From Methanotrichaceae archaeon (lineage in GTDB: Archaea; Halobacteriota; Methanosarcinia; Methanotrichales; Methanotrichaceae), in contig JAFGMR010000019.1 of NCBI GenBank assembly GCA_016927425.1, positions 1 to 64,000 on the forward strand: 64,000 nt of DNA, written 5' to 3'. The position numbers and the translations under genes are program-made. This document shows, in pieces, positions 11,464-63,395 of the stretch. Each line of letters begins with the position of its first letter. The stretch's first letter is position 1. Under the pieces are notes generated by a model. The model searched no databases. It worked only from the letters and a program-made list of their open reading frames with translations, and had not been told where the DNA came from.

Positions 11464-12407
11464 CGACCGCTTGGAGGACCCTGGTGCGCAGAGATCGGTT
11501 TATGACAATGGCATGGAGCTCTCAATGGCGATGGTTCATGCCGCCACATTCATGGCCCAAATTGGGCCTGGCTGGACTGGCATTAGTGCTCGCCTTGCTT
11601 GCAGCAGGCTGCCTCGCTCCGGCCCCGGAAGGGGATCGCATGCAGGTTGTGACCACCATAGCCCCCCTCGCGGATATGGTGCATAACGTTGGAGGCGACT
11701 ATGTGGAGGTGACGGTGATCGTCCCCCCCGGGGCCGAGCCCCACACCTTCGAGCCCACTCCATCCCAGATGCGGATAATGGAGAGCGCAGACCTCTACGT
11801 CAAGAATGGAGCAGGCCTTGAGACCTGGATAGAGCTGATGGTTGGGGATCATATATCGGTCGTCGACTCCTCGAAGGGCGTAGATCTGATCTTTGGGGAG
11901 GGAGGCGCTGAGAGAAGCGCGCCTGATCCACACATATGGCTCTCCCCCAGGAACGGCATGATACAGGTTGAGAACATCTACAAAGCCCTTGCCGACGCAG
12001 ACCCGATACATGAGGAATACTATGCCCAAAACAGGGATTCGTACCTCAAAACGCTTCAGGATCTCGATTCTGACCTCGGCAAGCGTCTTGGAAGGGCACA
12101 TAGGCGGGTCTTTATAGTACAGCATCCCGCCTTCAGCTATCTCGCGAGGGATTACGGCCTCGTCCAGGTGCCCCTGTCAGTTGACGAGAAGGAGCCAGGC
12201 CCGCGCCACATGGCAACCGTTGTGGATCTCGTCTCCTCCTCGAACGTTTCTGCCATCTTCGTCGAGCCCCAGTTCAACCCGAAGAGCGCCCAGGTGATCG
12301 CGGATGAGACCGGCTGCAATGTTCTTGAGATAGACCCCCTTCCCGAGAACTACACCGCAGGCCTTCGCCATGCCGGAGAGATGATCGCCGAGAGCCTGGA
12401 GGCTTGA
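11460..12407 (+). CDS. Metal ABC transporter substrate-binding lipoprotein, ZnuA-like
   Basis: A 315-residue cluster A-I solute-binding protein that captures a divalent metal outside the cell for the ABC transporter encoded next. The signal region runs to a lipobox (LLAAGC, Cys51). Likely metal ligands in this numbering are His95 (GAEPHTFEP), His158 (DPHIWLSP), His222 (VQHPAFSYLARDYG) and Glu269 (FVEPQFNP). Three histidines with His at the third position is the zinc pattern; manganese binders usually have Glu there. There is no His-rich loop. I choose the ATG at 11460, overlapping the previous stop; Met27 would give a more compact signal peptide and is a real alternative. Confidence 0.9.
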   Translation: MTTAWRTLVRRDRFMTMAWSSQWRWFMPPHSWPKLGLAGLALVLALLAAGCLAPAPEGDRMQVVTTIAPLADMVHNVGGDYVEVTVIVPPGAEPHTFEPTPSQMRIMESADLYVKNGAGLETWIELMVGDHISVVDSSKGVDLIFGEGGAERSAPDPHIWLSPRNGMIQVENIYKALADADPIHEEYYAQNRDSYLKTLQDLDSDLGKRLGRAHRRVFIVQHPAFSYLARDYGLVQVPLSVDEKEPGPRHMATVVDLVSSSNVSAIFVEPQFNPKSAQVIADETGCNVLEIDPLPENYTAGLRHAGEMIAESLEA

Positions 12408-12408
12408 G

Positions 12409-13158
12409 TTGATCGCGGTATCCATCGAGGACCTCTGGGTCAAGCTAGGACGCCGAACCGTCCTGGAAGCGATCAACCTGGAGGTCGAAGAGAGGGACTT
12501 CATCGGCCTTATCGGCCCAAACGGCGGTGGCAAGTCGACGCTGCTTCGCGCAATACTCGGGCTTATCCGACCAACGCAAGGCATAATAACGGTCTTCGGG
12601 CAAAGACCGGCTGCGGCGAGGCGCTCCGTTGGCTACCTCCCCCAGAGAAACCTATTCGACTCGGGCTTTCCCGCAACTGCCCTGGATGTGGTGCTAATGG
12701 GCCGCTATGGCGGCCTTGGATTGATGAAGCGAGCAGGACCCGCCGACAAAGAGGCCGCATACGACGCCCTAATGATGGTGGACATGGCAGAGAAGGCGTC
12801 CCGAGAGATAGGCGCGCTCTCCGGGGGGGAGCAGCAGAGGGTCTTTCTCGCACGTGCCCTCGTCTCCAGGCCTCGCCTGCTCCTTCTAGACGAGCCAATC
12901 ACCGGCATCGACGCATCCGGGCAGGGGGAGATCTACGACCTATTTCGTCGCCTCAACAGGGAGATGGCGATCATCATGGTCTCTCACGACCTGAGCGCGA
13001 TCTCAACCTACGTGGAGAAGATAGCCTGCCTGAGCCGGCGCCTCTACTACCACGGCTCAAGAGAGCTCTCAGCGGAAGATCTGATCGATGCCTATGGCTG
13101 TCCCGTGGACATGATCGCCCATGGCGTGCCCCACAGGGTTCTGAGGGAACATGATTGA
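12409..13158 (+). CDS. Metal ABC transporter ATP-binding protein, ZnuC-like
   Basis: A 249-residue ABC ATPase that powers metal import through the neighbouring ABC-3 permease. It has Walker A GPNGGGKST at residues 36-44, Q-loop region VGYLPQR near 74-80, the signature ALSGGEQQRV at 136-145, Walker B LLLLDEP at 157-163 and a switch histidine in MVSHDLSAIS. All elements are intact. The start is a TTG at 12409, two bases after the substrate-binding protein stop; the 3' end overlaps the permease start by eight bases. The layout (binding protein, ATPase, permease) is typical of zinc/manganese uptake operons. Confidence 0.95.
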   Translation: MIAVSIEDLWVKLGRRTVLEAINLEVEERDFIGLIGPNGGGKSTLLRAILGLIRPTQGIITVFGQRPAAARRSVGYLPQRNLFDSGFPATALDVVLMGRYGGLGLMKRAGPADKEAAYDALMMVDMAEKASREIGALSGGEQQRVFLARALVSRPRLLLLDEPITGIDASGQGEIYDLFRRLNREMAIIMVSHDLSAISTYVEKIACLSRRLYYHGSRELSAEDLIDAYGCPVDMIAHGVPHRVLREHD

Positions 13159-13942
13159 GATTCTCCAGTACGAGTTCATGAAAAACGCCCTTGCTGCCGG
13201 CCTCATAGCCTCGGTCCTCTGCGGGGTGATAGGGGTCTACGTAATCCTCAACCGGATAGTCTTCATCGGCGATGGCGTTGCCCACGCCGCCTTCGGGGGA
13301 ATTGGCATCGGATACCTGGCAGGCATCGATCCCCTGCTCGTAGGCGTGATCTTCGCCGTCACGTCCGCGCTTGGAATTGGCCGAATATCGAGGGCGAAGG
13401 TTGCCGAGGACACGGCAATCGGCGTCTTCCTTGCCATGGGGATGGCGGTCGGCGTTCTCTGCATGAGCCTCGGGCGGGGCTACGGCCGAGACCTCTTCGA
13501 CTACCTCTTCGGAAACATCCTTGCGGTGACGAGGGATGACGTCTATCTCGTCTTCGTCCTAACCGCGATAATGATTGCAGCAGTCGCCCTTCTGTACAAG
13601 GAGCTGCTCATAACATCCTTCGATCCCGCCTACGCGGAGGCCTTAGGAGTGCCTGTGGGAGGTATTCGCCTCCTGCTGCTATCGATGGTGGCGCTCTCCG
13701 TCGTCGTGCTGATCAAGATCGTCGGAATCGTGATGGTAATCGCCCTCCTGACGATCCCGGCCGCCGTTTCCAGACAACACCTATCGGGCCTTATAAACAT
13801 CATGATCCTTGCTGTCATTTTAGGAATGGCCTTCGTCACCTCGGGGCTTGCCATATCCTACATTTTCGACCTGCCCTCGGGCGCAACGATCATCCTCGTG
13901 GCCTCGGCTGCCTTCTTCCTAAGCACTGCCCTCTCCAGATGA
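13151..13942 (+). CDS. Metal ABC transporter permease, ABC-3 family (ZnuB-like)
   Basis: The 263-residue ABC-3 family permease has about eight hydrophobic segments and the family sequence LCGVIGVYVILNRIVFIGDG near the N-terminus, followed by VAHAAFGGIGIGYL. The cytoplasmic loop EDTAIGVFLAMGMAVGVL and the C-terminal LLTIPAAVSRQ match the part that contacts the ATPase. It works with the two preceding genes in uptake of zinc or a similar metal. Start and end overlap the neighbouring genes, and the following gene starts at an ATGA overlap, so translational coupling is likely through the whole run. Confidence 0.95.
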   Translation: MIEILQYEFMKNALAAGLIASVLCGVIGVYVILNRIVFIGDGVAHAAFGGIGIGYLAGIDPLLVGVIFAVTSALGIGRISRAKVAEDTAIGVFLAMGMAVGVLCMSLGRGYGRDLFDYLFGNILAVTRDDVYLVFVLTAIMIAAVALLYKELLITSFDPAYAEALGVPVGGIRLLLLSMVALSVVVLIKIVGIVMVIALLTIPAAVSRQHLSGLINIMILAVILGMAFVTSGLAISYIFDLPSGATIILVASAAFFLSTALSR

Positions 13943-49304: not shown

Positions 49305-50174
49305 ATGTTTAGAAGGATTCTTGTTCCCACAGACTTTTCTAAGTACTCCCAGAAGGTGCTCGAGTGCATTAAAGAGATTCCCGGATTGGAGGACATTTTG
49401 CTCCTCCACGTGATCGGACCATTCGACTCCATATCCAAGATATTGGATCCAGTGGCACGAGATGAGGAGGCAAAAGCCAAGCTCGCCGAAGAGAGGACAT
49501 ACCTGGAACGCTTTGGCCTCAATGTCGAGGCCAGGATCGAGAAATTGACGGAGGGCGAGATAGCTGGCCTAATACAAAGGGTGGCAGATGAAGAGCACAT
49601 CCCCCTGATCGCTCTAGGCGCACGCGGCAAGGGGCTCGTAGAGGGCATCCTTCTGGGAAATGTGGCGAGGACCCTCCTGAGATACGGAAATACAAACCTC
49701 CTCCTCATGCGCTATGCCCTTCTCGAAGGACGCGAGGGCCCAAAGCTAGGGGGGTTCTGCTCAAAGCCATTCTCAAGGGTGCTCTGCCCCACCGACTTCT
49801 CCGAGCCTGCCGCCCAGACTGTGAGATTCATCGAAGGGATCGAGGGGGTGAAGGAGGTCATCCTTCAACACGTCATATTCAAGGGCGAGACCTGGAAGGA
49901 GATTGAGGCAAGTCGAGAGGATGCGGCAGAGAAGCTCGAGGCCATAGGAGGAGAGATAAGGCGGTCAGGCCTTGAATTCAGAGCATTTGTGAGCGTAGGC
50001 AATCCCGTTGAAGAGATATGCAACCTCGCAAATAAAGAGGACGTATCCCTGATCGCCATGAGTTCTCACGGAATGGGTTGGTTGAAGCAGCTCGCCATAG
50101 GGAGCACCACCTACGACGTCGCAAGAACTGCAGAGCTGCCGCTCATGGTGGTGAGGGCTCGCCCGATAGCATGA
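49305..50174 (+). CDS. Tandem-domain universal stress protein (UspA family)
   Basis: A 289-residue protein with two Usp domains. The first (~1-140) has FRRILVPTDFSKYSQKVLEC and IALGARGKGLVEGILLGNVA; the second (~150-287) has FSRVLCPTDFSEPAAQT and IAMSSHGMGWLKQLAIGSTT. The GxxGxnG-type nucleotide-binding loop is partly kept in both (GARGKG-V-LLGNVA, SSHGMG-L-AIGSTT), so ATP binding is plausible. Such proteins help cells survive starvation or stress by unknown mechanisms. ATG start behind AGGAGATCC. It stands between an IS-like relic and a long AT-rich gap. Confidence 0.93.
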   Translation: MFRRILVPTDFSKYSQKVLECIKEIPGLEDILLLHVIGPFDSISKILDPVARDEEAKAKLAEERTYLERFGLNVEARIEKLTEGEIAGLIQRVADEEHIPLIALGARGKGLVEGILLGNVARTLLRYGNTNLLLMRYALLEGREGPKLGGFCSKPFSRVLCPTDFSEPAAQTVRFIEGIEGVKEVILQHVIFKGETWKEIEASREDAAEKLEAIGGEIRRSGLEFRAFVSVGNPVEEICNLANKEDVSLIAMSSHGMGWLKQLAIGSTTYDVARTAELPLMVVRARPIA

Positions 50175-50863: not shown

Positions 50864-51616
50864 ATGGCGATGAACCCAGCTGAAATTGGTTTGATGGGGA
50901 TAGTCATGGCCGTACTCGTAGGGCCATTCTTCATTAAAAGAGTGGAGCGCAACCTAGAAGGATTTCTGTTTCTGATGAGCGCATGTGCTGTAGCCATTTC
51001 CAAGACCTGGCACATCGGCCTCGTAGAGGAGGCGTTCCAATCCACGGTAATTGTAGGCATATTATTGTGTGTATTGGCGGTCGGCTCAGTAATACGCTAC
51101 CGGAGGCCGAATCCGGATGGCATGAATAACTCGTTCATAGATGGAATAACTCTTAAAGTAATATTCTTTGAAATCGTGGTCGTACTGGGATTGCTAGCAG
51201 GCATAGTCACGCCCATTATCCCGTTCTTCGTCCTCGTGGAGGTGGTACACCTGCTGCCCATCGAGCGTAAGGCGCGGGCGAGCCTGATGCTGTTGGCATG
51301 CTTGTCGGTACTATTAGGAGCTGCTGCAACTCCAGGGGGTGGCCCTTACTCCACAATAGCGGTCACCACGATTGGTGGCCAACCCCATGCGGAACAACTG
51401 CTCCCCCTCTCGAACTTATTGAGCATCAACCTGATTCCATATCTACTATTGCTAGGCCTGATCAGCACCCTATTCGCCGGAAGATCTACCTTCAAGGAGA
51501 TTCCTGCCAAGGATGATGCTGTTACATTCAAGAATGCGGCAAATCTAGGTGTGCGAGCTTGCATGTTCGTTGGAGCCCTTCTCCTCGTTGGAGGGGCATT
51601 TGGTGTCAATTTCTAA
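50864..51616 (+). CDS. Truncated DUF1646 transporter (N-terminal half)
   Basis: A 250-residue membrane protein matching the first part of the DUF1646 domain of the next gene: EIGLMGIVMAVLVGPFFIKR, VERNLEGFLFLMSACAVAIS, FVLVEVVHLLPIERKARASL and the hairpin motif ATPGGGPYSTIAV (TPLGEPLSTIA in the full protein). It stops after VGALLLVGGAFGV, where the full protein continues for about 110 residues with the second conserved hairpin (DNATLTAAEI). DUF1646 belongs to the ion-transporter superfamily with two inverted halves, so this piece should not be a complete transporter alone. It may act as a partner of another subunit or be a decaying copy. Good ribosome binding site, 34 bases from the next gene. 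Confidence 0.85.
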   Translation: MAMNPAEIGLMGIVMAVLVGPFFIKRVERNLEGFLFLMSACAVAISKTWHIGLVEEAFQSTVIVGILLCVLAVGSVIRYRRPNPDGMNNSFIDGITLKVIFFEIVVVLGLLAGIVTPIIPFFVLVEVVHLLPIERKARASLMLLACLSVLLGAAATPGGGPYSTIAVTTIGGQPHAEQLLPLSNLLSINLIPYLLLLGLISTLFAGRSTFKEIPAKDDAVTFKNAANLGVRACMFVGALLLVGGAFGVNF

Positions 51617-51650: not shown

Positions 51651-53792
51651 ATGTACACAGGAATGGAAACCGCGAACGTCATAACCTCCATAGCCACGGT
51701 GATTAGCTGGGGTTTATCGTTCATCGGTGTACACAGGTACATGCGCTCCTATGCTCACCATTACGACAATGGATTTCCCATGATCTTATCCGTATTGGTG
51801 AGCGTAGGCGTAGGAATTATCGCTGCTACAGCTTCAAGCATGCTATTGACTGGAAGAGCTGGACTCTCGCCCCTCGATATGAGTTTTGCCATGACGGCAA
51901 TTGCGGTAATTCTGATATGGGCCATATCCTTCGTGAGTATATATAGATATATAAGGTCACATGCCACCCATTACGATAATGGCTTCGCCATGATCTTATC
52001 CGTATTGGTTAGCGTAGGAGTGGGAATTATTGCAGCGGGGGCTGCAAGCAATATCTCGACGATAGGGGCAGCGCTTCAGCCGCTGGAGATCAGGATGGTC
52101 ATTGCGGCAATAGCGGCAGTCGTGGTATGGGGCATATCCTTCGTGGGAATATATCGATACTTGAAGCCATACTCGACCAATTATGATAATGGGTTTACGA
52201 CGATCCTCTCGGTACTGATGAGCGTGGGGATGGGAATTCTAGCCGCGGCAACAGCCAGCAGACTACTGACCGAGCCGACGTCATTGCCGCCCATTGAGAT
52301 GGGCTTGATCGTAACGGCAACAGCCGCAGTCGTGGTATGGGGCATATCCTTCGTGGGGATATATCGATACTTAAAGCCCTATTCGGCCAATTATGATAAT
52401 GGGTTTACGACGATCCTCTCGGTACTGATGAGCGTGGGAATGGGAATTCTAGCCGCGGCAGTAGCAAGCACGCTATTGAAAGGACCTGCGGCGTTGCCGC
52501 CCCTTGAGATGAGCCTGGTCATAACAGCGATAGCAGTCGTCGTGGTATGGGGCATATCCTTCGCAGGGATACATCGATACTTGAGATCCCATGCAACAGG
52601 CCACGACAATGGCTTCTATATGGCACTCTCAGTTGCAGCAAGCATTGGAGTGGCAATAGTTGCCGCAGCTCTTGCGAGCAAGATCTCGGTGATACAGATG
52701 CCCTCCGCAGACCTGGGATATGGTGTGACTACAGTCGACCTGGGCCTAGCCCTCATAGCTCTCGGCGTGCTGATTGGGCCGTTCACCGTGAAGAGGATAG
52801 AGCACAACCTGGAGGTCTTCCTGTTTGTGATGGGCGTTCTCGCCGTCACAGTTGCAGGCGTCTGGGAGATGAGGCTTGTCGAGGAGGCCGTCATGGAGCC
52901 GGTGGTCAAGGGCATCGTTCCGGCCGTGCTGACGGCAGGCGTGCTCTTCCACTACGGCAGATCATACGTACATGAAGCCATGGATGCCATCCAGAAGGCG
53001 GTTCCCCTCAAAGTGATAGTCTTTGTGATGATCGTTGCGCTCGGATTGGCATCGAGCATCATGACGGCCATCATCGCCTCCCTGCTCCTCGTTGAGCTGG
53101 TGAACTGCCTGCCGCTCGACCGAAAGGCCAAGATCAATCTGGTGGTCGTCTCCTGTTTCTCAATCGGCCTTGGAGCAGTCCTCACGCCGCTCGGCGAGCC
53201 GCTTTCAACAATTGCCGTCTCGAAGTTGCAAGGAGCGCCTTATCACGCAGATTTCTTCTTCCTCTTCGACCAGCTGGCCGGGTACGTAATACCTGGTGTG
53301 CTGGTCATGGGGTTGCTTGGCACCCTCTTCGTGAGAAAGGCCACGGCCGAGGAGTGCGTGATGACCACGACGGCTACAGAAGGCCTCAGAGATGTGGGCA
53401 TAAGGGCGGCCAAGGTTTACGCCTTCGTGATGGCCCTGCTCCTCCTCGGAGGTGGCATGAAGATTATCATCGATAAATACTTCATAGCCATCCCCTCTGA
53501 GGCGCTCTATTGGGTGAACATGCTCTCAGCGATCCTCGACAACGCCACGCTTACTGCGGCGGAGATCGCCCCCAGCCTGTCTATGCCGCAGATCAGCGCC
53601 GCCCTGATGGGCCTCTTGATCGCAGGTGGCATGCTCATTCCAGGAAACATCCCCAACATCATCGCCGCGAACAAGCTGGGCATCACCTCCAAGGAATGGG
53701 CCCGTCTGGGCATACCGCTGGGCCTAGTATCGATGCTGGTCTACTTCGTGTGGGTCTTCTACCTGCCGTTCAAGCCCAGCCTCGGCTTCTAG
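51651..53792 (+). CDS. DUF1646 transporter fused to five 70-residue membrane repeats
   Basis: A 713-residue integral membrane protein. Residues 5-354 are five tandem 70-residue repeats, each with two hydrophobic helices and the pattern VVWGISFVGIYRYL, then YDNGFTTILSV and SVGMGILAAA. The invariant Trp is at 20, 90, 160, 230 and 300, so there is not one inserted or deleted residue. Residues ~360-713 are a complete DUF1646 domain with TPLGEPLSTIAV (512-523), DNATLTAAEI (630-639) and PGNIPN (664-669), related to Na+/H+ or arsenite-type ion transporters. The repeat domain is not one I recognise. The conserved Asp-Asn and Arg-Tyr at helix ends could bind ions or lipids. A strong hairpin terminator overlaps the stop. 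Confidence 0.9.
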   Translation: MYTGMETANVITSIATVISWGLSFIGVHRYMRSYAHHYDNGFPMILSVLVSVGVGIIAATASSMLLTGRAGLSPLDMSFAMTAIAVILIWAISFVSIYRYIRSHATHYDNGFAMILSVLVSVGVGIIAAGAASNISTIGAALQPLEIRMVIAAIAAVVVWGISFVGIYRYLKPYSTNYDNGFTTILSVLMSVGMGILAAATASRLLTEPTSLPPIEMGLIVTATAAVVVWGISFVGIYRYLKPYSANYDNGFTTILSVLMSVGMGILAAAVASTLLKGPAALPPLEMSLVITAIAVVVVWGISFAGIHRYLRSHATGHDNGFYMALSVAASIGVAIVAAALASKISVIQMPSADLGYGVTTVDLGLALIALGVLIGPFTVKRIEHNLEVFLFVMGVLAVTVAGVWEMRLVEEAVMEPVVKGIVPAVLTAGVLFHYGRSYVHEAMDAIQKAVPLKVIVFVMIVALGLASSIMTAIIASLLLVELVNCLPLDRKAKINLVVVSCFSIGLGAVLTPLGEPLSTIAVSKLQGAPYHADFFFLFDQLAGYVIPGVLVMGLLGTLFVRKATAEECVMTTTATEGLRDVGIRAAKVYAFVMALLLLGGGMKIIIDKYFIAIPSEALYWVNMLSAILDNATLTAAEIAPSLSMPQISAALMGLLIAGGMLIPGNIPNIIAANKLGITSKEWARLGIPLGLVSMLVYFVWVFYLPFKPSLGF
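51663..52712 (+). repeat. Five 210-bp in-frame coding repeats
   Basis: The DNA coding the 70-residue membrane repeats has an exact 210-bp period. Units three and four (about 52083-52502) are nearly identical over long stretches, such as GTCGTGGTATGGGGCATATC and GATAATGGGTTTACGACGAT, while units one, two and five are more diverged. This indicates recent duplication or gene conversion of the middle units on top of an older repeat. Confidence 0.92.
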
Positions 53793-53824: not shown

Positions 53825-54188
53825 TCGAGATCTTCGATCCATTTAAGGCGTACTTCGACAAATGCCCCAGCCCCACAACCTGACCCCCCACTCTTTTTAG
53901 CACATAGAACCGAAGCATAGCGATCGATTATGCCTAATTACCCACATACAATATACCTGATAGCCAGCATCGATCGCCTCATTTGTCCCCACTTCTGCCA
54001 AATCAATGGAGAACTCAGGCTCAAAAGGATTAATTGGCCACTCGATCAACTTAGACAAGAAAAACCAGAACAATAATAGATCAATTCTATGATTATTAAT
54101 GAACAAATGCCCCTGCAGTAGGAACATTTATTACATAGATTCATGCAGTATCTCTGGAATTGCAATTATGGAGACGAGAGGAGACATC
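53825..54188. other. Intergenic region between DUF1646 derivatives
   Basis: No gene is seen in about 360 bases. The right part is AT-rich (AATAATAGATCAATTCTATG near 54072) and may hold the promoter of the small DUF1646 remnant. Frames crossing it lack ribosome binding sites. Confidence 0.35.
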
Positions 54189-54542
54189 ATGATACAGCCG
54201 AGTTCAATCGAGATATTGGTTGTCGTTCTAACCATTGCGGCCATAGCTGTGCCGATATGCAACGCCATCCTCCATCGATCGGCCCGTTGTGGCATCATTT
54301 CAAGCCGATCAGCCCTATGCGGGATATCGGTCGTCGCTCTGGGGCTCCTCGCAAGCATTATCGCACCGATGGCGGTGCTGCTAATTCTCGTTGCCGCTGC
54401 TATGCTTATTCCGATGGAGAAGAAGATGATGATGGGCCTTCTCATCATTGGCTGCCTGGCCATAGCCATGGGTTCGGCCCTCGATCTCCACGGCATTCCA
54501 CCCTCTCAGATAGCCCTCATGAAGCTGTATGGTCCTCCATGA
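54189..54542 (+). CDS. Short DUF1646 remnant or mini-protein (117 residues)
   Basis: A 117-residue hydrophobic protein. Its second half (VALGLLASIIAPMAVLLILV, LIPMEKKMMMGLLIIGCLAI, GSALDLHGIPPSQIALMKL) lines up with IVALGLASSIMTAIIASLLL, CLPLDRKAKINLVVVSCFSI and GAVLTPLGEPLSTIAVSKL of the 713-residue protein. The first half has lost the intervening ~70 residues, and nothing follows the first hairpin motif, where GEP has become GIP and Thr is lost. It is therefore an internally deleted and truncated copy. The ATG at 54189 has GAGGAGA at good spacing, so it may still be translated; an upstream ATG at 54168 is possible. Pseudogene status cannot be excluded. Confidence 0.65.
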   Translation: MIQPSSIEILVVVLTIAAIAVPICNAILHRSARCGIISSRSALCGISVVALGLLASIIAPMAVLLILVAAAMLIPMEKKMMMGLLIIGCLAIAMGSALDLHGIPPSQIALMKLYGPP

Positions 54543-55290: not shown

Positions 55291-57012
55291 TTAGGAGATA
55301 GCCCATCTATATATCAACTCCACGAGCAAGTAGACTGCGAGGAAGATCAGTGCAATTAATACCGAGACTCCCACCAGCATTCTCTCTTCCAGCTCCCCAC
55401 CATACCCTTTGAAGAATGAAGCGATCCTCTTCAAGCCCTGGTCCAGATTGGCGCCAAGGGCCATCAAAGGCCCCTTGACGAACCACATAAACTTGGCCCC
55501 GATCATCCTGAGCGGCCAATCCGTATCCAGGCTGATCGTTCTTCGCTCCGGGGGATATATTCCCGAAAGCATGAGAACATAGAAGGCAAACGAGGCAAAG
55601 AGCAGGAGCTGAAGCTGGCCGACTACATGAGGCGTAGTGTATGGCACATAGTCGATCGAATACGGAAGGATCTGGTAGAGCGGATGGGGATAAACGCCTA
55701 ACAAGATGCACAAGAAGGCTATTGTTCCCATGGCAATCTGCATATTGATGGGGGGGTCTCGCACCCGAATCCCCCTATCCTCGGAGAAGAACGTCATGAA
55801 GGGCACCTTTATGCCGGCATGTTCGAATACGCCCGCTCCGGCCAGTTGCAATAGAACGAATATTAGGGCGAAGTTGCCGGCAAGAGCAGCATCTATCGTC
55901 ATCGATTTGGTCGTAAAACCCGAGAATAGGGGGAAAGCCGATATCGACGCTGCGCCCACGACGCAACAGATGCACGTGATCGGCATGCTCTTATACAAAC
56001 CCCCGAGCTCCGTGATCTTGGTTGTACCCGTCCTGTAAAGAACGCTGCCTATGGACATGAAGAGCAATCCCTTATAGAGGATATGTACGAAGGCATGCGA
56101 GACTGCGCCGTTGATGGCGAGTGCAGTGCCAATCCCTATCCCGCATAGCATGAATCCAACCTGATTGATGATGCTATAGCTGAGAACCTTCCTCAAGTCG
56201 TTCTCGAGCACAGCGTAGAAGATGGGATATATCGTCATAAATGCCCCAATCCACATTAGAGGGCCAAAACCTGCAAAGCCTCTTGCCAAGACGTAGACCG
56301 CGGTCTTGGTTGTGAAGATGCTCAAGTAGACCGATCCCGCATAGGTCGACTCCGGATAGGAATCGGGCAGCCAGGCATGCAATGGCGGAGCACCCGCATT
56401 TATTATGAAACCAACGAAGATTAATAAAGAAGGCAGAAGAAGATCGGGAGAACTCCAGCCGATTGCATTGAAGGCTATCGAGCCCGTACCTGCTATATAC
56501 ATGACGATCCCCGCTAGGAGAATCACGCCACCTGCCACATGCCATAAGATATAGCGGTATCCAGCCCCTAGAGCCCTGTCGGTACCGCCATGCAAGATGA
56601 CGAGCAGGGCTGTGATCGCCATGATCTCCCAGAAGATGTAAAGGGTAATCAGGTCTCCAGCGAAGACTGCTCCAATCGAGCTGCCCGCATAAATGAACTC
56701 CGACATGAGCTCACTGCTGCTTTTGATATTCAGGCCATAGAGAACGACCGGGACAGATGCTAACGAGAATGCCAATCCGAAGAGCAAGCTCAGCTTGTCC
56801 ACCCTTCCGAACACGAGCTCGTATCCAAGAAAAGGCAGCTGCCATCTCGAGGCGGGAATGTCTCCAAATACACCCATATACATGAGGATGAGGTCTATGA
56901 AAGCCAATACTGGAGGTATTAGCAGATAGGCCTTCCTCCATCTGCCCTTTAAGAATGGGATGATGAAAGCGCCTACGATTAATATAACTCCAGGGTGCAC
57001 CCACTCGATCAT
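55291..57012 (-). CDS. MrpD/NuoL-family antiporter subunit (third copy)
   Basis: A 573-residue proton-translocating antiporter-like subunit with about 15 transmembrane segments. The family landmarks include IFWEIMAITALLVI (acidic residue of helix 5), PLHAWLPDSYPEST, ENDLRKVLSYSIINQVG (conserved Lys region) and HAFVHILYKGLLFMSIGSVL. Compared with the other two copies it has a longer C-terminal end, with a helix at 545-570 (LVGVSVLIALIFLAVYLLVE). It translocates Na+ or H+ as part of the Mrp-type complex encoded to the right. It overlaps the 106-residue gene by four bases and is separated from the main mrp genes by the secreted propeller-like protein. Confidence 0.92.
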   Translation of the reverse strand: MIEWVHPGVILIVGAFIIPFLKGRWRKAYLLIPPVLAFIDLILMYMGVFGDIPASRWQLPFLGYELVFGRVDKLSLLFGLAFSLASVPVVLYGLNIKSSSELMSEFIYAGSSIGAVFAGDLITLYIFWEIMAITALLVILHGGTDRALGAGYRYILWHVAGGVILLAGIVMYIAGTGSIAFNAIGWSSPDLLLPSLLIFVGFIINAGAPPLHAWLPDSYPESTYAGSVYLSIFTTKTAVYVLARGFAGFGPLMWIGAFMTIYPIFYAVLENDLRKVLSYSIINQVGFMLCGIGIGTALAINGAVSHAFVHILYKGLLFMSIGSVLYRTGTTKITELGGLYKSMPITCICCVVGAASISAFPLFSGFTTKSMTIDAALAGNFALIFVLLQLAGAGVFEHAGIKVPFMTFFSEDRGIRVRDPPINMQIAMGTIAFLCILLGVYPHPLYQILPYSIDYVPYTTPHVVGQLQLLLFASFAFYVLMLSGIYPPERRTISLDTDWPLRMIGAKFMWFVKGPLMALGANLDQGLKRIASFFKGYGGELEERMLVGVSVLIALIFLAVYLLVELIYRWAIS

Positions 57013-57329
57013 TTCTTCTCAACCCCCCTCATTTCATAATAATCCTCTTCCCTCACTAGAAGCGGGCGCAACCCTTTGGCCGTATAAATAAGAAAGACGA
57101 ATGCTACGAAACCATATATCGCGTAGAATGAGGTTATATCCTGCCACCAGAATATAATATGCCAATGAACAAATAGTCCGGCCACGACCATGGTGATGAG
57201 GCAAACTCCATAAAGTGCGATCAACAAGTTCCCATGTTTGTGGCGCGGCTCCTTGGTTCCAAAGAAGAGCAGAACGTAGCCAATGACGCCAATTAGAGCG
57301 AGAATCACGATCGGTATTTCGTCAGCCAT
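57009..57329 (-). CDS. Small four-helix membrane protein of the antiporter cluster
   Basis: A 106-residue protein with three or four hydrophobic segments (IPIVILALIGVIGYVLLFFG, LLIALYGVCLITMVVAGLFV, FYAIYGFVAFVFLIYTAKGL) and a charged C-terminal tail (REEDYYEMRGVEKK). It is not MrpF or MrpG by pattern: it lacks the MrpG GxxxLRxPD motif. Its position upstream of and overlapping an MrpD-like gene suggests that it is a subunit of that complex. Family not recognised. ATG start. Confidence 0.75.
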   Translation of the reverse strand: MADEIPIVILALIGVIGYVLLFFGTKEPRHKHGNLLIALYGVCLITMVVAGLFVHWHIIFWWQDITSFYAIYGFVAFVFLIYTAKGLRPLLVREEDYYEMRGVEKK

Positions 57330-57350
57330 TTTTCGCTTTCCCCCTAAAGA

Positions 57351-57482
57351 TTATAGTACGCCCAAAGCTACATAGATCAGAAATGCAATATATACTAAAG
57401 TCAGCAATAAGAGGGCCCACGCGAGCATCTCCGAGGGACCTCCATAATATGTATGCCAGAAGCCAGAGCATCTTTCTTTCAT
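57351..57482 (-). CDS. Tiny membrane protein (43 residues)
   Basis: The minus strand encodes MKERCSGFWHTYYGGPSEML, followed by a transmembrane helix (WALLLLTLVYIAFLIYVAL) and a short end. GGTGATTGGAT precedes the ATG. It lies 21 bases upstream of the 106-residue gene, on the same strand. The soluble stretch before the helix is rich in aromatic residues. A similar arrangement at 55115-55204 suggests a set of small accessory subunits. No family recognised. Confidence 0.6.
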   Translation of the reverse strand: MKERCSGFWHTYYGGPSEMLAWALLLLTLVYIAFLIYVALGVL

Positions 57483-57505
57483 ATCCAATCACCGAAACCT
57501 CTCGA

Positions 57506-58771
57506 TCATCTCACCCTTATCAGCCAAACATCGCTCTTTCCAGCGCCGTACGACTCTGTGACGCCCGTGAGTATGTAGCCACCATCCTGGGTCTGGTGCC
57601 CCGAGTTGCCCCAATCGTTGCGCGAACCGCCGAAGGCCAGGTCCCACTCCCTGTTACCCTCGGAATCGGTCTTTATCAGCCAAATGCGGCTCAAGCTAGA
57701 CGGCTTGTAAAACCAGGAATCGGCAGAATCGGAGACGTTGGAGATGGTATTGAATCCTAGAATCGCATATCCGCCATCCATTGTCTGTTGGACGGAAGAT
57801 CCCTGATCGAAGTTGGCCCCCCCAAACGTCTTATCCCACTCGATGTTCCCCCCCCGGTCGGTCTTTATCAGCCAGACATCGCCATTTCCGGCTCCGAAGG
57901 ACTCCGTCAATCCAGTGATGATGTAACCCCCATCCTCAGTCACCCAGACGGAGAGGCCGATGTCTCGGCTCGTTCCTCCGAAGGTCTTATCCCACTCCTT
58001 GAACCCATTTGAATCCGTCTTAATCAGCCAGACATCCTCTTTTCCAGCATCATCAGAAGATATGTACCCCGTGATAATGTAGCCGCCATCACTTGTCTCT
58101 TGAAGGGAAACCCCCTCTGCCGAGTTCTCTCCGCCATAGCCCATCTCCCATTCCTTATTTCCGTATGAGTCGGTTTTTACGATAAATAGCATTCTATTAG
58201 TACCATAAGATATATAACCGGTGGCGATATAGCCAAGGTCTTTCGTCTGCCGGATGAAGAAGCCCAGGTCCTCCTTCTCCCCGCCGAAGGTCCTCTCCCA
58301 TTCCATGATCCCTTCGGAGTCCGTCTTCAGGATCCAGAGGTCGTAGCTGCCAACCCAGGAAGATCTCTTAGCTCCACATATTATATAACCGCCATCTTGA
58401 GCCTCCTCTACAGAGAATCCGAACTCCCTGCCAAAGCCACCGAATGTCCTCTCCCACACCAGGTTGCCCAACGAATCCGTCTTGATCAGCCAGAGGTCTC
58501 CCCTTAGATGCGATCTGATGAGCCAAGAATAAGGCACGTCAGCGCCAAAGCTTTCCGTAGATCCTACAATGATATAGCCCCCTTCGCTGGTCTCAGAAAC
58601 GAATGTGCCAACGTCGTCGCTCGATCCGCCAAAGGTTCTATTCCATTCCTCCTGGGGCAGTCGGCTGCCATTGCCAAGATCGGTTATGGCGATTTCGGGC
58701 CTGGTTGGCGCTAGGGATGTCGCAATCAATATCATCATTAAGGCCATCCACTTAAATATTATAACATCCAT
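57506..58771 (-). CDS. Exported protein with seven FGG repeats, probable beta-propeller
   Basis: A 421-residue exported protein. After a signal-like helix (WMALMMILIATSLAPTRP) come seven ~50-residue repeats of the form EWDKTFGG, D-G-SVQQT-DGGYII, GLTESFGAGNGDVWLIKTD and GNIEW, a repeat common in methanogen surface proteins. Seven copies fit a seven-bladed beta-propeller. There is no anchor at the C-terminus (ends DVWLIRVR). The ATG at 58771 is chosen because GGAAGGAAG lies just upstream; an in-frame ATG at 58822 lacks one. It lies between two MrpD-like genes on the same strand, which is an odd place for a surface protein. Confidence 0.88.
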   Translation of the reverse strand: MDVIIFKWMALMMILIATSLAPTRPEIAITDLGNGSRLPQEEWNRTFGGSSDDVGTFVSETSEGGYIIVGSTESFGADVPYSWLIRSHLRGDLWLIKTDSLGNLVWERTFGGFGREFGFSVEEAQDGGYIICGAKRSSWVGSYDLWILKTDSEGIMEWERTFGGEKEDLGFFIRQTKDLGYIATGYISYGTNRMLFIVKTDSYGNKEWEMGYGGENSAEGVSLQETSDGGYIITGYISSDDAGKEDVWLIKTDSNGFKEWDKTFGGTSRDIGLSVWVTEDGGYIITGLTESFGAGNGDVWLIKTDRGGNIEWDKTFGGANFDQGSSVQQTMDGGYAILGFNTISNVSDSADSWFYKPSSLSRIWLIKTDSEGNREWDLAFGGSRNDWGNSGHQTQDGGYILTGVTESYGAGKSDVWLIRVR

Positions 58772-58894
58772 AATAGCTTCCTTCCAAGACCTCGCTACAT
58801 GCCGAACCACTGCATTTGGCATTCCAGAAAGCGATGTAGCTTAGGACATTCCCATAAGTCCCATCAAAGGATAGCGACATGATGGTCATTTTCC

Positions 58895-60397
58895 TCAGCC
58901 ACCTCCGAAGAGTTCCACAATCGCCAATTGTACAAGATCGATTATATAGAATGTATGTGGATATATAAAGAAGAGGATTGAAAAGGCCGCAGTTATGGAC
59001 AGAGGTACAAGCATGAAGGTGGGAGCTTCCTTTATCACATAACCGCCGTTCGTTCTCTCTGCATCCACAGGCTCCCTGAAGAAGGCAGCATGTATTATAG
59101 GGAAGAAATATACAATATCAAGCACTGAACTGGTTAATATGACTGCGAGGAATATCATTCCATAGGGAGGATGGAGCTCCCATGCGCCGAAGCAGAGATA
59201 CAATTTACTGATAAATCCACATAACGGCGGGAGGCCAGCCATGCCGATCGCAGCAATGCTGAAGGCAAGCATCGTAACCGGCATGGTCTTGCCAAGTCCT
59301 GCCATCTCGCTTATCTTCCTCTTTCCGCTCCCCACTAGAATCGCTCCGGCACACAGAAAGAGGGTTATCTTCATGTATGCATGGAATGGAATGTGGAGCA
59401 TCGCCCCCATCACTCCATCCTTGGTCAGGAATGCCGCACCTAGGATTACGTAGGATAGCTGGCTTATGGTTGAATAGGCCAGCCTCTTCTTGATGTCATC
59501 CTGAGCGATGGCGAAGAAGGAGCCCATGATCATGGTGAATCCCGCGATGCAGGCCAAGATCAGCCACAGGCCAAGCTCATCTACAAGGCCCACCCCGAAG
59601 ATGTAGCATATCATTCGCACTATGCCGAAAACACCCGCCTTGACCACGGCTACCGCATGCAATAAGGCACTGACCGGCGTCGGTGCTACCATCGCTGTGG
59701 GGAGCCAGGAATGGAAGGGCATCCAGGCAGCCTTCATGAATCCGAGGAGGAAACAGAAGAACAGCACCGTGGCTGCCACCGGGGATGTGGTAGCTAGTGC
59801 CTTGATCCCTCCAGGCGTAAAATCACAGGATCCTGTGAGATAATAAGTGGCGACGACCCCGAAGAGAAAGAAAGCTCCAGCCGGCATCAGATAAGCGAAG
59901 TATTTATGCCCACCACCCAAGGCCTCGGGAGTCTGCTCGTGTATCACCAAAGGATAGGTAGAAACTGTAATTATCTCAAAAAATACAAACATTGTCAATA
60001 AATTAGCAGAAAGGGCAACTCCAATTGCCCCGAGAATTGCAAGGCAGAAAGCGAAGAAGTATCTAGTCTGAGCATGCTCTTTCAAAGATCGCATATATCC
60101 TATCGAATATAGGGAGACTAGAATCCACAGGGATGATGTGGTGATGGCGAATATCAGGCCGAACGCGTCGACTTTGAACGCGAAGTCGATGTTCTTGAAC
60201 ATTGTATGAAACATGGTAAACCTGATAACATCCCCTTTGAGAACTTCGGGCCCCATGGAAAGGACAAGGGCAAACATCGTTATGCCTGCCGCTATGGTCC
60301 ATCCTTCGCGGATATTGGGGTGATTCCTGGATAGCAAGACCAGAGGTGCCGCGATTGCCGGGCAGAGTATCGCCAATAGTGGCGTGAGCGACTCCAT
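58895..60397 (-). CDS. MrpD/NuoL-family antiporter subunit (second copy)
   Basis: A 500-residue antiporter-like subunit with about 14 transmembrane segments. It has FEIITVSTYPLVIHEQTPEA (helix-5 acidic residue), MPFHSWLPTAMVAPTPVSAL, DDIKKRLAYSTISQLSYVIL and HIPFHAYMKITLFLCAGA. It overlaps the preceding MrpD gene by one base, so the two are translated together. This type of sequence is close to the Mbh/Ehb H subunit-like branch of the family, and it should carry one of the ion channels of the complex. Ends KLAIVELFGGG-like. Confidence 0.92.
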   Translation of the reverse strand: MESLTPLLAILCPAIAAPLVLLSRNHPNIREGWTIAAGITMFALVLSMGPEVLKGDVIRFTMFHTMFKNIDFAFKVDAFGLIFAITTSSLWILVSLYSIGYMRSLKEHAQTRYFFAFCLAILGAIGVALSANLLTMFVFFEIITVSTYPLVIHEQTPEALGGGHKYFAYLMPAGAFFLFGVVATYYLTGSCDFTPGGIKALATTSPVAATVLFFCFLLGFMKAAWMPFHSWLPTAMVAPTPVSALLHAVAVVKAGVFGIVRMICYIFGVGLVDELGLWLILACIAGFTMIMGSFFAIAQDDIKKRLAYSTISQLSYVILGAAFLTKDGVMGAMLHIPFHAYMKITLFLCAGAILVGSGKRKISEMAGLGKTMPVTMLAFSIAAIGMAGLPPLCGFISKLYLCFGAWELHPPYGMIFLAVILTSSVLDIVYFFPIIHAAFFREPVDAERTNGGYVIKEAPTFMLVPLSITAAFSILFFIYPHTFYIIDLVQLAIVELFGGG

Positions 60398-61911
60398 TAA
60401 AGCCTCCCTCCTGTCGATAGATCAGATAATATCTGGTTGATCAAGGGCATTGGAATATCCGTCAGCCAAAAGATGCCGAGGATAATGCATAGGGCAGCCA
60501 GGACCATCATTGGAGCAGTCATGCTGATGGGAAGCCTTCTCGTCCCCTCATTACCCCCTTCTGTTGGCTCCTCATGCCTTACGAAGTACATTCGATCGAT
60601 CACCCTCCAAAAATATACCAGGTTGAGAAGGCCGCTCAAGAGCAATATGACGACGAATGGATATTGAGCGGCGTCCAGAGAGGCGAGTATCAAGAAAAGC
60701 TTGGAGGCGAATCCCGCGGTGGGCGGGATCCCTATCATGGAGATGGCAGCTATTGCAAAGGCGCCGCTCGCCCAAGGCATCCTCTTGGATAGGCCTTCAA
60801 AAGACCTTATGTCCCACTTCCCCTCTTGATGGATGAACGACCCTGCCGCCAAGAACAGGCAACCTTTCATGACAGCATGGTTCAATATATGGGCAACTAC
60901 CCCGACCAGCCCCCAGGGAGAGAGTGGGGAGAGGCCGATTCCCAGCAATATATAGCCGAACTGGGATACCGATGAGTAGGCAAGCATCCTCTTAACGTTT
61001 CGTTGCTTTATTGCGAAGACGGAGCCTGCGAGTATCCCAGCGGCGGCGACCCAGCATATTATTAAATCTAAACCAATATAATATCTGATGAAATCGAGAG
61101 TAAAGACTGAGTAAACCAGCCGGATCAATATATATATCATGACCTTTCCATGAATGGATGCAATCATAGCGCTTACCGAGGATGGCGCATAGGTATACGC
61201 ATCTGGTTGCCAGAAATGAAGTGGAAAGATATAGGCCTTTATCATTATGCCGACCACGATAAATGCGAAGGCCATTTGCACCAATCTGCTATCGTATACT
61301 ACCGGCAGCAGTATTCTCATGTCGGCCATGTTAAGGGTGCCTGTGGCGGCATAGATCCAGCCCACCCCAAAGATATAGAAGACGGCTCCAATCGATCCCA
61401 TTATCACATAGTTATAGCTTGCCCGGAGAGCCCTTCCTCCGGCCACAGCTATCAATGCATAGGCAGTCAAAGAGGCGATCTCGAGCCACACGAACATGTT
61501 AAACAGGTCGCCGGTCACGGTTATTCCTGCAAGCCCCGCGACCATGAGCTGGATCAGGGCGTAGAAAGTGGGATGTTTTCTCGCCTCGATCTCCTTCTCC
61601 ACATTCCTCTTCGAGTATATCTCGATCAATATCACTATGAAGAAGAGGATCACCAGCAGATAGGCATTCATGGCATCCACTACATATTCTATCCCCCAAG
61701 GAGGCCTCCACCCACCTTGCCAGTACTTGATCGGTCCTACTGCCAAGACATGCCTCAGTGTGAGGATGGAAAGCGCGAAGAAGACGATATTTGCCAGAAG
61801 TGAGATCCAAAAGGCCGACTTCTTATTCAGGTATCCGGCGAGCAAAATCGTGAAGCCACAGAACATGGCTACAGTTACGATTATGACCGGAAGCTGTTCA
61901 GCCAGAAGCAT
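60397..61911 (-). CDS. mrpD: Na+/H+ antiporter subunit MrpD (first copy)
   Basis: A 504-residue antiporter subunit, the closest of the three to classical MrpD. It has WLEIASLTAYALIAVAGG, FPLHFWQPDAYTYAPSSVSA, RNVKRMLAYSSVSQFGYILL and HAVMKGCLFLAAGSFIHQEG. It follows MrpC with a 14-base overlap, the usual C-D order. In Mrp complexes MrpD, together with MrpA, exchanges Na+ for H+ across the membrane. In methanogens such complexes adjust sodium and proton gradients during energy conservation. Confidence 0.94.
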   Translation of the reverse strand: MLLAEQLPVIIVTVAMFCGFTILLAGYLNKKSAFWISLLANIVFFALSILTLRHVLAVGPIKYWQGGWRPPWGIEYVVDAMNAYLLVILFFIVILIEIYSKRNVEKEIEARKHPTFYALIQLMVAGLAGITVTGDLFNMFVWLEIASLTAYALIAVAGGRALRASYNYVIMGSIGAVFYIFGVGWIYAATGTLNMADMRILLPVVYDSRLVQMAFAFIVVGIMIKAYIFPLHFWQPDAYTYAPSSVSAMIASIHGKVMIYILIRLVYSVFTLDFIRYYIGLDLIICWVAAAGILAGSVFAIKQRNVKRMLAYSSVSQFGYILLGIGLSPLSPWGLVGVVAHILNHAVMKGCLFLAAGSFIHQEGKWDIRSFEGLSKRMPWASGAFAIAAISMIGIPPTAGFASKLFLILASLDAAQYPFVVILLLSGLLNLVYFWRVIDRMYFVRHEEPTEGGNEGTRRLPISMTAPMMVLAALCIILGIFWLTDIPMPLINQILSDLSTGGRL

Positions 61912-62332
61912 ATCTTACCTCCTCTTGCAGCTCCCTCTCAAGTATCTCATCTTCTTCTATGGTCCCATATTTCTGGTAGATCCTAATCACAATCGCCAGG
62001 GCTACGGCGGTTGTTGCCGCGCTGACCACAATCCCTGTGAGCATGAGAACGTTGGGGAGAGGATTAACATATGTGTATCCTTCCTCCACGGCTTTCTCCC
62101 AAATAATGGGCGGGGTTCCCCCTTTTAAACCCCATGTAACCATAACATCTCTTCCAACATCCCCAAGAGAGATGAACCAGAGGAACATGGCCGTTTGAAA
62201 TATGCTCAATCCAATGAGTTTCTTCAGCAAGTTGCCCTTGGCCATAGCGGCATAAAGCCCTATGAGAATTATGGTCATGGCTATCCAGAAGTTATATTTC
62301 TCCAGGACGTGCTGCGCGAGCCATTCCATCAT
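61898..62332 (-). CDS. mrpC: Antiporter subunit MrpC (NuoK-like)
   Basis: A 144-residue three-helix NuoK-like subunit. The hallmark NPLPNVLMLTGIVVSAATTA followed by VALAIVIRIYQ is intact, with the first helix FWIAMTIILIGLYAAMAKGN. An unusual loop (~65-85: GGTPPIIWEKAVEEGYTYV) extends the family's short linker. The C-terminal tail is acidic (EEDEILERELQEEVRY). It overlaps MrpB at the start and MrpD at the end. Confidence 0.93.
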   Translation of the reverse strand: MMEWLAQHVLEKYNFWIAMTIILIGLYAAMAKGNLLKKLIGLSIFQTAMFLWFISLGDVGRDVMVTWGLKGGTPPIIWEKAVEEGYTYVNPLPNVLMLTGIVVSAATTAVALAIVIRIYQKYGTIEEDEILERELQEEVRYASG

Positions 62333-62832
62333 TCTTTCCTCACCACCATCTCCTCTTCTTCATCCTTCCAAGCGAGGTCGAAGTATTGGGAGATGAACGC
62401 CGCCATCACCGTCAATCCTATCCCCACCTCAACCATGAACGCAATTATCCAAGCCCTGGACCCTGCAACGCCCACCAGATCCGTCACAGGCCAGATTCCG
62501 GGATAGTTCAGAAATTGCACTGCCCCCATGCTGAAGATAATGCACAAAAGGCCGGAACCATTGTAGAGATACAATCCAAAGCTCTCGAAGAACGTATTAA
62601 CCGATTCCGGAATCATCTCCCGCCCGCGCTTTGCCCCAAATACGGTGATATAGAGGATGAAACCAGCTGCTAATATCGTTCCTCCCTGGAACCCACCCCC
62701 TGTGCCCTCCGTCCCTATCATCACGTAGAAGCCAAATAGCAGGATGAACGGCAATATCAGCCGGGATATCGTCTCTATTATGACATCCCTCCCCGCCATC
62801 CTCTTCTCAGGAATGGCCCCTCCACCAGTCAT
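62329..62832 (-). CDS. mrpB: Antiporter subunit MrpB (MnhB domain)
   Basis: A 167-residue MnhB-type subunit with four helices. The family core LILPFILLFGFYVMIGTEGT and GGGFQGGTILAAGFILYI is clear, and IIAFMVEVGIGLTVMAAFIS lies near the end. It overlaps both neighbours by four bases. It is a structural subunit of the Mrp complex and does not carry a channel by itself. Confidence 0.93.
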   Translation of the reverse strand: MTGGGAIPEKRMAGRDVIIETISRLILPFILLFGFYVMIGTEGTGGGFQGGTILAAGFILYITVFGAKRGREMIPESVNTFFESFGLYLYNGSGLLCIIFSMGAVQFLNYPGIWPVTDLVGVAGSRAWIIAFMVEVGIGLTVMAAFISQYFDLAWKDEEEEMVVRKE

Positions 62833-63395
62833 AGCCTCCCCCTCCTCCTCAAGAGCATGGTAACAGCAATGGCTCCGGTGAGGATAACGGTCTCCTCCCC
62901 CATAGTGTCAAAACCCCTGTAATCAGCAAGCCCCGAGGTGACGGCATTGGGAGTTGCAGTCTCCTCCTCAGTCCACTCTATAACCCTCACGGGCCAATTA
63001 TATCTATATACTGCCAGCTCCTCGCCCAATACCCTGATACAATAATATTTTATTGGTTCATTATAATAGATCTCCCCTTCCTCAATTAGAACATCCCAAC
63101 CCCCGTTCTCCTCATTCCACTCGATCTCATAGCCACCCTCCTCCAGAGTTGGATAGTGGTTCTCTTCATTAAAACCAAATTCATATATTTTATTCTTTAG
63201 TTCTATTGGAATTACCCCACTCTCCAGCATACTCCCCATGGCATCGCTTTGCATTGAGAATATTCGTATGTACTTGTTTGCAGGTGAGTTCTCATCACCG
63301 AAGGCGGGCAAATCCTCGATTACGTATGCAGACAGACCGATGAGGATTATTACAATTACTATTCCGAATGAGGAAAGGGATTTCACTTCTCCCAC
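62829..63395 (-). CDS. MbhE-like subunit with an enlarged extracytoplasmic insertion
   Basis: A 188-residue protein. The two ends match the small MbhE-like/MrpA-C-terminal subunit: a first helix IVIVIILIGLSAYVIEDLPA with FGDENSPANKYI, and the end TPNAVTSGLADYRGFDTMGE followed by ETVILTGAIAVTMLLRRR. Between them (residues ~45-140) is an acidic, aromatic stretch (FNEENHYPTLEEGGYEIEWN, YYNEPIKYYCIRV) where known members have about ten residues. By topology it should be outside the membrane. It overlaps both neighbours, in the usual position before MrpB. Confidence 0.85.
   Translation of the reverse strand: MGEVKSLSSFGIVIVIILIGLSAYVIEDLPAFGDENSPANKYIRIFSMQSDAMGSMLESGVIPIELKNKIYEFGFNEENHYPTLEEGGYEIEWNEENGGWDVLIEEGEIYYNEPIKYYCIRVLGEELAVYRYNWPVRVIEWTEEETATPNAVTSGLADYRGFDTMGEETVILTGAIAVTMLLRRRGRL

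Follow-up and report, generated by a model that had tools for sequence, protein, structure and literature searches.

A gene at positions 51651–53792 (+) of the 64,000-nucleotide stretch of Methanotrichaceae DNA analyzed here (the window) raises two questions: what is the repeated membrane domain that it places ahead of a transporter domain, and what might the former do for the latter? The gene is a single open frame with an ATG start and encodes a 713-residue fusion of five membrane repeat units and a DUF1646 transporter domain. Unit 1 spans residues 3–72 (51657–51866, +) and corresponds to the first unit in the homologues; units 2, 3, 4 and 5 follow at residues 73–142 (51867–52076, +), 143–212 (52077–52286, +), 213–282 (52287–52496, +) and 283–352 (52497–52706, +), respectively. 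A short linker then leads into the complete DUF1646 (PF07854) domain (52749–53765, +), in which the TPLGEPLST and PGNIPN motifs are retained. The initial annotation had proposed five 70-residue repeats, and the numbers agree: the DNGF tetrapeptide recurs at residues 39, 109, 179, 249 and 319, in steps of 70/70/70/70, and the identity of the protein to itself at a lag of 70 is 165/290 (57%), far beyond chance, with 5–12% at the other lags from 60 to 79. Unit-to-unit identity lies at 47–59%, except for units 3 and 4, which are 77% identical as protein and 84% as DNA; the earlier description of the middle units as near-identical is qualified to this extent.

Each unit comprises a hydrophobic helix 1 (approximately positions 8–27), a basic turn (28–41) that ends in DNGF, and a hydrophobic, Ala/Ser/Gly-rich helix 2 (42–61). 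Hydropathy and two AlphaFold runs agree on two predicted helices per unit and ten in total, as initially proposed. Both runs returned helices only and were of low confidence (pLDDT 36.6 and pTM 0.24 for the full-length protein with 6 alignment rows; pLDDT 55.6 and pTM 0.35 for a two-unit model with 8 rows), which we attribute to a lack of related sequences; the alignments comprised window sequences and related loci only. Models of this quality do not discriminate among the sensor, ion vestibule and oligomerization ring initially put forward as possible roles.

The repeat domain had been called unrecognized, and no annotated family was found to cover it: Pfam and NCBIfam yielded no consistent match above cut-off, and PDB chains yielded no sequence match. 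Judged by these searches, the repeat is an undescribed two-helix membrane unit and a member of no named membrane repeat family. Weak matches to DUF6796, MgtC and EamA (best E 5.5e-08, 6.1e-05 and 1.3e-05, respectively) were confined to some units or homologues and are read as membrane-composition noise; the DUF6796 score fell from 33.1 to 17.7 bits on whole-protein scoring, below the cut-off of 26.9. An origin of the unit from the N-terminal hairpin of DUF1646 was suggested by visual likeness and dropped, as hhalign gave no support. Searches of viral contigs and of plasmids found no relatives.

A repeat profile built on 15 units separated true members (E below 1e-30) from the best other match (E 0.004) among 394 genomes of the phylum. 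Within the class, 3 of 238 genomes carry the repeat, all of them Methanotrichaceae: the window's own genome (G000), G015 and G067, the last matching a Methanothrix sp. MAG from Lake Pavin (JAPKYA01). The latter two genomes each hold two copies of the fused gene, and all four copies have three units, spaced 72 and 73 residues apart. Repeat number therefore does vary between genomes, at five in the window and three in the relatives, and spacing is not fixed in the family; the absence of indels claimed at first is true of the gene in the window and fails for the four homologous genes. All five fused genes of the three genomes are single open frames with a conserved start region. The repeat fusion is a real, maintained, lineage-specific addition. 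Most DUF1646 proteins of Methanotrichaceae lack the repeat, and the ordinary members in the family genomes examined are frames of approximately 350–440 residues.

The DUF1646 match covers residues 367–705 (E 7.9e-115; 384 bits against a cut-off of 21.4) and positions 5–347 of the 347-position profile, which bears out the earlier view of a complete transporter domain. The C-terminal 340 residues are those of a full family member, 58–77% identical to relatives within Methanotrichaceae, and the TPxGEPLST and PGNIPN columns are invariant or near-invariant across the fused protein and ten relatives; it is the repeat domain that sets the fused protein apart. DUF1646 probably belongs to the IT (ion transporter) superfamily, whose fold is an inverted repeat with two re-entrant hairpins. 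In hhalign the two halves of the domain did not match each other, PDB yielded no sequence match, and the AlphaFold model was of low confidence. Some DUF1646 proteins are predicted to be Na+/H+ antiporters, and in bacteria DUF1646 genes lie under Na+ riboswitches (PMC9337991). The 64-kb window itself contains no Na+ riboswitch or other Rfam family. Because of the riboswitch association, the antiporter prediction and the genomic linkage to an Mrp antiporter described below, a Na+-linked carrier is our best guess for the fused protein.

Twelve positions are invariant in the 16 distinct units: A14, W19, S22, F23, D38, N39, G40, F41, S46, S50, I55 and A58; position 54 is always Ala or Gly. On helix 2, small residues four apart (S46, S50, A/G54 and A58, plus position 61) form a stripe of the kind typical of tight helix packing (permutation p 0.02, for a stripe picked post hoc). 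A general test at 100 degrees per residue gave no significant conserved face on either helix. The net charge is +1 in each turn and 0 or −1 in the loops on the other side. By the positive-inside rule, in which basic segments face the cytosol, the turns would be cytosolic and the units would begin and end outside. Since every unit adds two spans, the orientation of DUF1646 would be the same for any whole number of units, with the domain starting outside and its KRIEHNLE loop inside.

Comparison of orthologues between G015 and G067 gave dN/dS values of 0.16–0.18 for the repeat domain and 0.07–0.08 for DUF1646, which indicates purifying selection on both, less strict on the repeats. The inference initially drawn from exact spacing and near-identical units, that structure is under selection, does not follow from those features, given the 72/73 spacing of the homologues and a dS of 0.36 between units 3 and 4; that the module is maintained is instead supported by the orthologue ratios and by the recurrence of the fusion. 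In a tree of DUF1646 domains, those of the five fused proteins group in a single clade (SH-aLRT 99).

Taken together, the reading that we favor, at a probability of about 40%, is that the repeat array is an accessory membrane hairpin scaffold for a Na+-linked DUF1646 carrier. The hairpins would enter the membrane from outside, each with its basic, DNGF-ending turn in the cytosol, and would leave the orientation of the carrier unchanged at any unit number. The array would pack against the carrier's fixed part, steadying it while the transport part moves, and it may also receive the half-length DUF1646 partner encoded next to it. Transport would be of Na+, probably in exchange for H+, within the sodium cycle in which the neighboring Mrp antiporter also takes part. 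Several observations are consistent with this scaffold: whole units are topology-neutral, small residues line helix 2, the repeat domains are constrained between orthologues, and the carrier is intact while unit number varies. One Trp is kept in every unit; the TRAP Q subunit and scaffold domains are reported to be enriched in Trp (PMC9971032). The sodium assignment draws on the DUF1646 literature and on the adjacent Mrp operon, which coincides with the repeat in three of the 39 DUF1646-bearing genomes of the family, neither occurring there without the other. Against the scaffold stand the low model confidence (pLDDT 37 and 56), the general test for a conserved helix face, the faster evolution of the repeat relative to the carrier, and the many family DUF1646 proteins that have no repeat; our literature search found no measured activity for any DUF1646 protein.

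The neighborhood of the gene bears on which partners such an array might have. Beginning with the upstream side, a two-domain universal stress protein (Usp) gene (49305–50174, +) is followed by a half-length DUF1646 gene (50864–51616, +; 250 residues, profile positions 4–245) that ends 34 nucleotides 5′ of the fused gene. Downstream lie a mini-DUF1646 gene (54099–54542, +; 147 residues, profile positions 61–172) and a convergent operon for an Mrp-type Na+/H+ antiporter (55291–63395, −), encoding three antiporter-type subunits as well as subunits B and C and a DUF4040 protein. True half-length DUF1646 frames are limited to the repeat-bearing genomes, with one in G000 and two each in G015 and G067. 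Every one of them precedes a fused gene, although in one G015 copy a TnpB-like gene now lies between the two. A MYAG(I/V)E start is common to the fused genes and some half-length genes and is restricted to the translation start region. If both halves are needed for transport, the half-length protein would be no complete transporter alone. Of 50 family genomes, 6 encode the Mrp marker MnhB: the three repeat-bearing ones and three others that lack any DUF1646 match at E ≤ 1e-5. Among the 39 DUF1646-bearing genomes, Mrp accompanies the repeat in 3/3 and is found in 0/36 of those lacking it (hypergeometric 1.1e-4, a value that ignores relatedness and draws on two genera and several incomplete genomes). 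The operon adjoins the fused locus here and in one relative and lies approximately 130 kb from the fused genes in G015.

Other features of these loci may be recorded. In G015, TnpB-like transposon genes are found next to the duplicated fused loci (L036:2876-4048 and 12374-13627). In each of the three genomes with the repeat, the Mrp operon has a mini-DUF1646 frame at its 3′ end; these frames, of approximately 107–147 residues (window 54099–54542; L079:3171-3491; L085:3771-4070), may encode a small protein or be remnants. Inside the operon, window positions 57506–58822 (−) encode a 438-residue protein with beta-propeller-like repeats (a weak SBBP match), which is present in the Mrp operons of the same three genomes, with no match in G002 and fragments only in G021. 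A further gene, found directly downstream of one fused gene in G067 and beside the fused genes in G015, joins a DUF1646 fragment (profile approximately 82–199, with its membrane helices) to an HrcA-type winged-helix DNA-binding domain and a CBS domain (L036:9227-10585, −; L080:4489-5781, +); its product resembles a transcription regulator anchored in the membrane, with a sensor part that would derive from the transporter.

This arrangement lends itself to a second reading, doubtful in our view, in which the hairpins are a docking module that tethers the carrier to the half-length DUF1646 protein or to the Mrp antiporter. The presence of a half-length gene before each of the five fused genes, and its absence from the rest of the family, is in keeping with docking, as is the coincidence of repeat and Mrp; co-occurrence in two genera is, however, also expected from shared sodium physiology or from descent, and the distance between the G015 fused genes and Mrp speaks against this reading.

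The turns allow for another interpretation, which we consider unlikely: a sensory or regulatory module in which basic, partly His-rich DNGF turns act as pH or Na+ sensors that gate the carrier, with unit number altering sensitivity. The sodium and pH context would suit such a role, as would the invariant D, N, G and F that each unit keeps at the edge of the membrane, and the turns of units 1, 2 and 5 contain several His residues; those of units 3 and 4 contain none, and the domain matched no known sensor family in Pfam or NCBIfam.

Less probable still is that the array is a tolerated expansion, in which unequal recombination added copies of one useful or harmless ancestral hairpin with little effect, as topology was left undisturbed. 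The history of the units offers some encouragement for this scenario. The dS between units 3 and 4 suggests that their similarity stems from a recent internal duplication no less than from selection. In the unit tree, first units group together on one side, and the later ones cluster according to lineage (95 and 99). This tentatively suggests that the ancestor had one first unit and one internal unit, the latter having expanded or been homogenized separately in each lineage, although the tree is short with long branches, which weakens this reading. Unit 2 accounts for most of the amino-acid change between the two G015 copies (14.5 nonsynonymous against 5.5 synonymous differences), which points to conversion or relaxed constraint in that unit, and copy number differs between genomes. 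Against a merely tolerated array stand the twelve positions invariant in all 16 distinct units and the orthologue dN/dS well below 1. The remaining idea, that a separate gene in decay was erroneously joined to the transporter, is refuted for practical purposes: the five fused genes in three genomes are each a single open frame, their start region is conserved, and they show purifying selection and a single DUF1646 clade.

Returning to the scaffold reading and extending it to its neighbors, one may speculate, with considerable reservation, that this new, lineage-restricted membrane repeat family forms an expandable scaffold or docking array of three or five hairpins, joining a sodium carrier and a half-carrier to Mrp-type Na+/H+ exchange in methanogens that use acetate. 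The energy margin of Methanothrix-type archaea is very small, and a sodium carrier whose occurrence is tied to that of Mrp bears on their Na+/H+ balance for that reason. Extra membrane repeats in variable number are unusual on an ion carrier, and the presence of none, three or five units on one carrier family in close relatives provides a natural series for the effects of added helices. A distinctive member with strong genomic context also helps to aim an activity test of DUF1646.

Among known systems, the SPW (PF03779) and MHYT (PF03707) families are likewise short membrane repeats in tandem; SPW did not match the units, and MHYT matched one unit at E 1, under its cut-off. A parallel in working is offered by TRAP transporters. 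The fused protein has no TRAP family match in Pfam or NCBIfam, and no gene for a binding protein (P subunit) was found among the scanned neighbors. In SiaQM, the four-helix Q subunit, which is fused to the carrier in some systems, enlarges the scaffold, which may allow the carrier to function as a monomer (PMC9971032). Unlike the array described here, Q has four helices and no tandem units; as here, extra membrane helices stand beside an ion-coupled carrier, and the analogy is one of working only.
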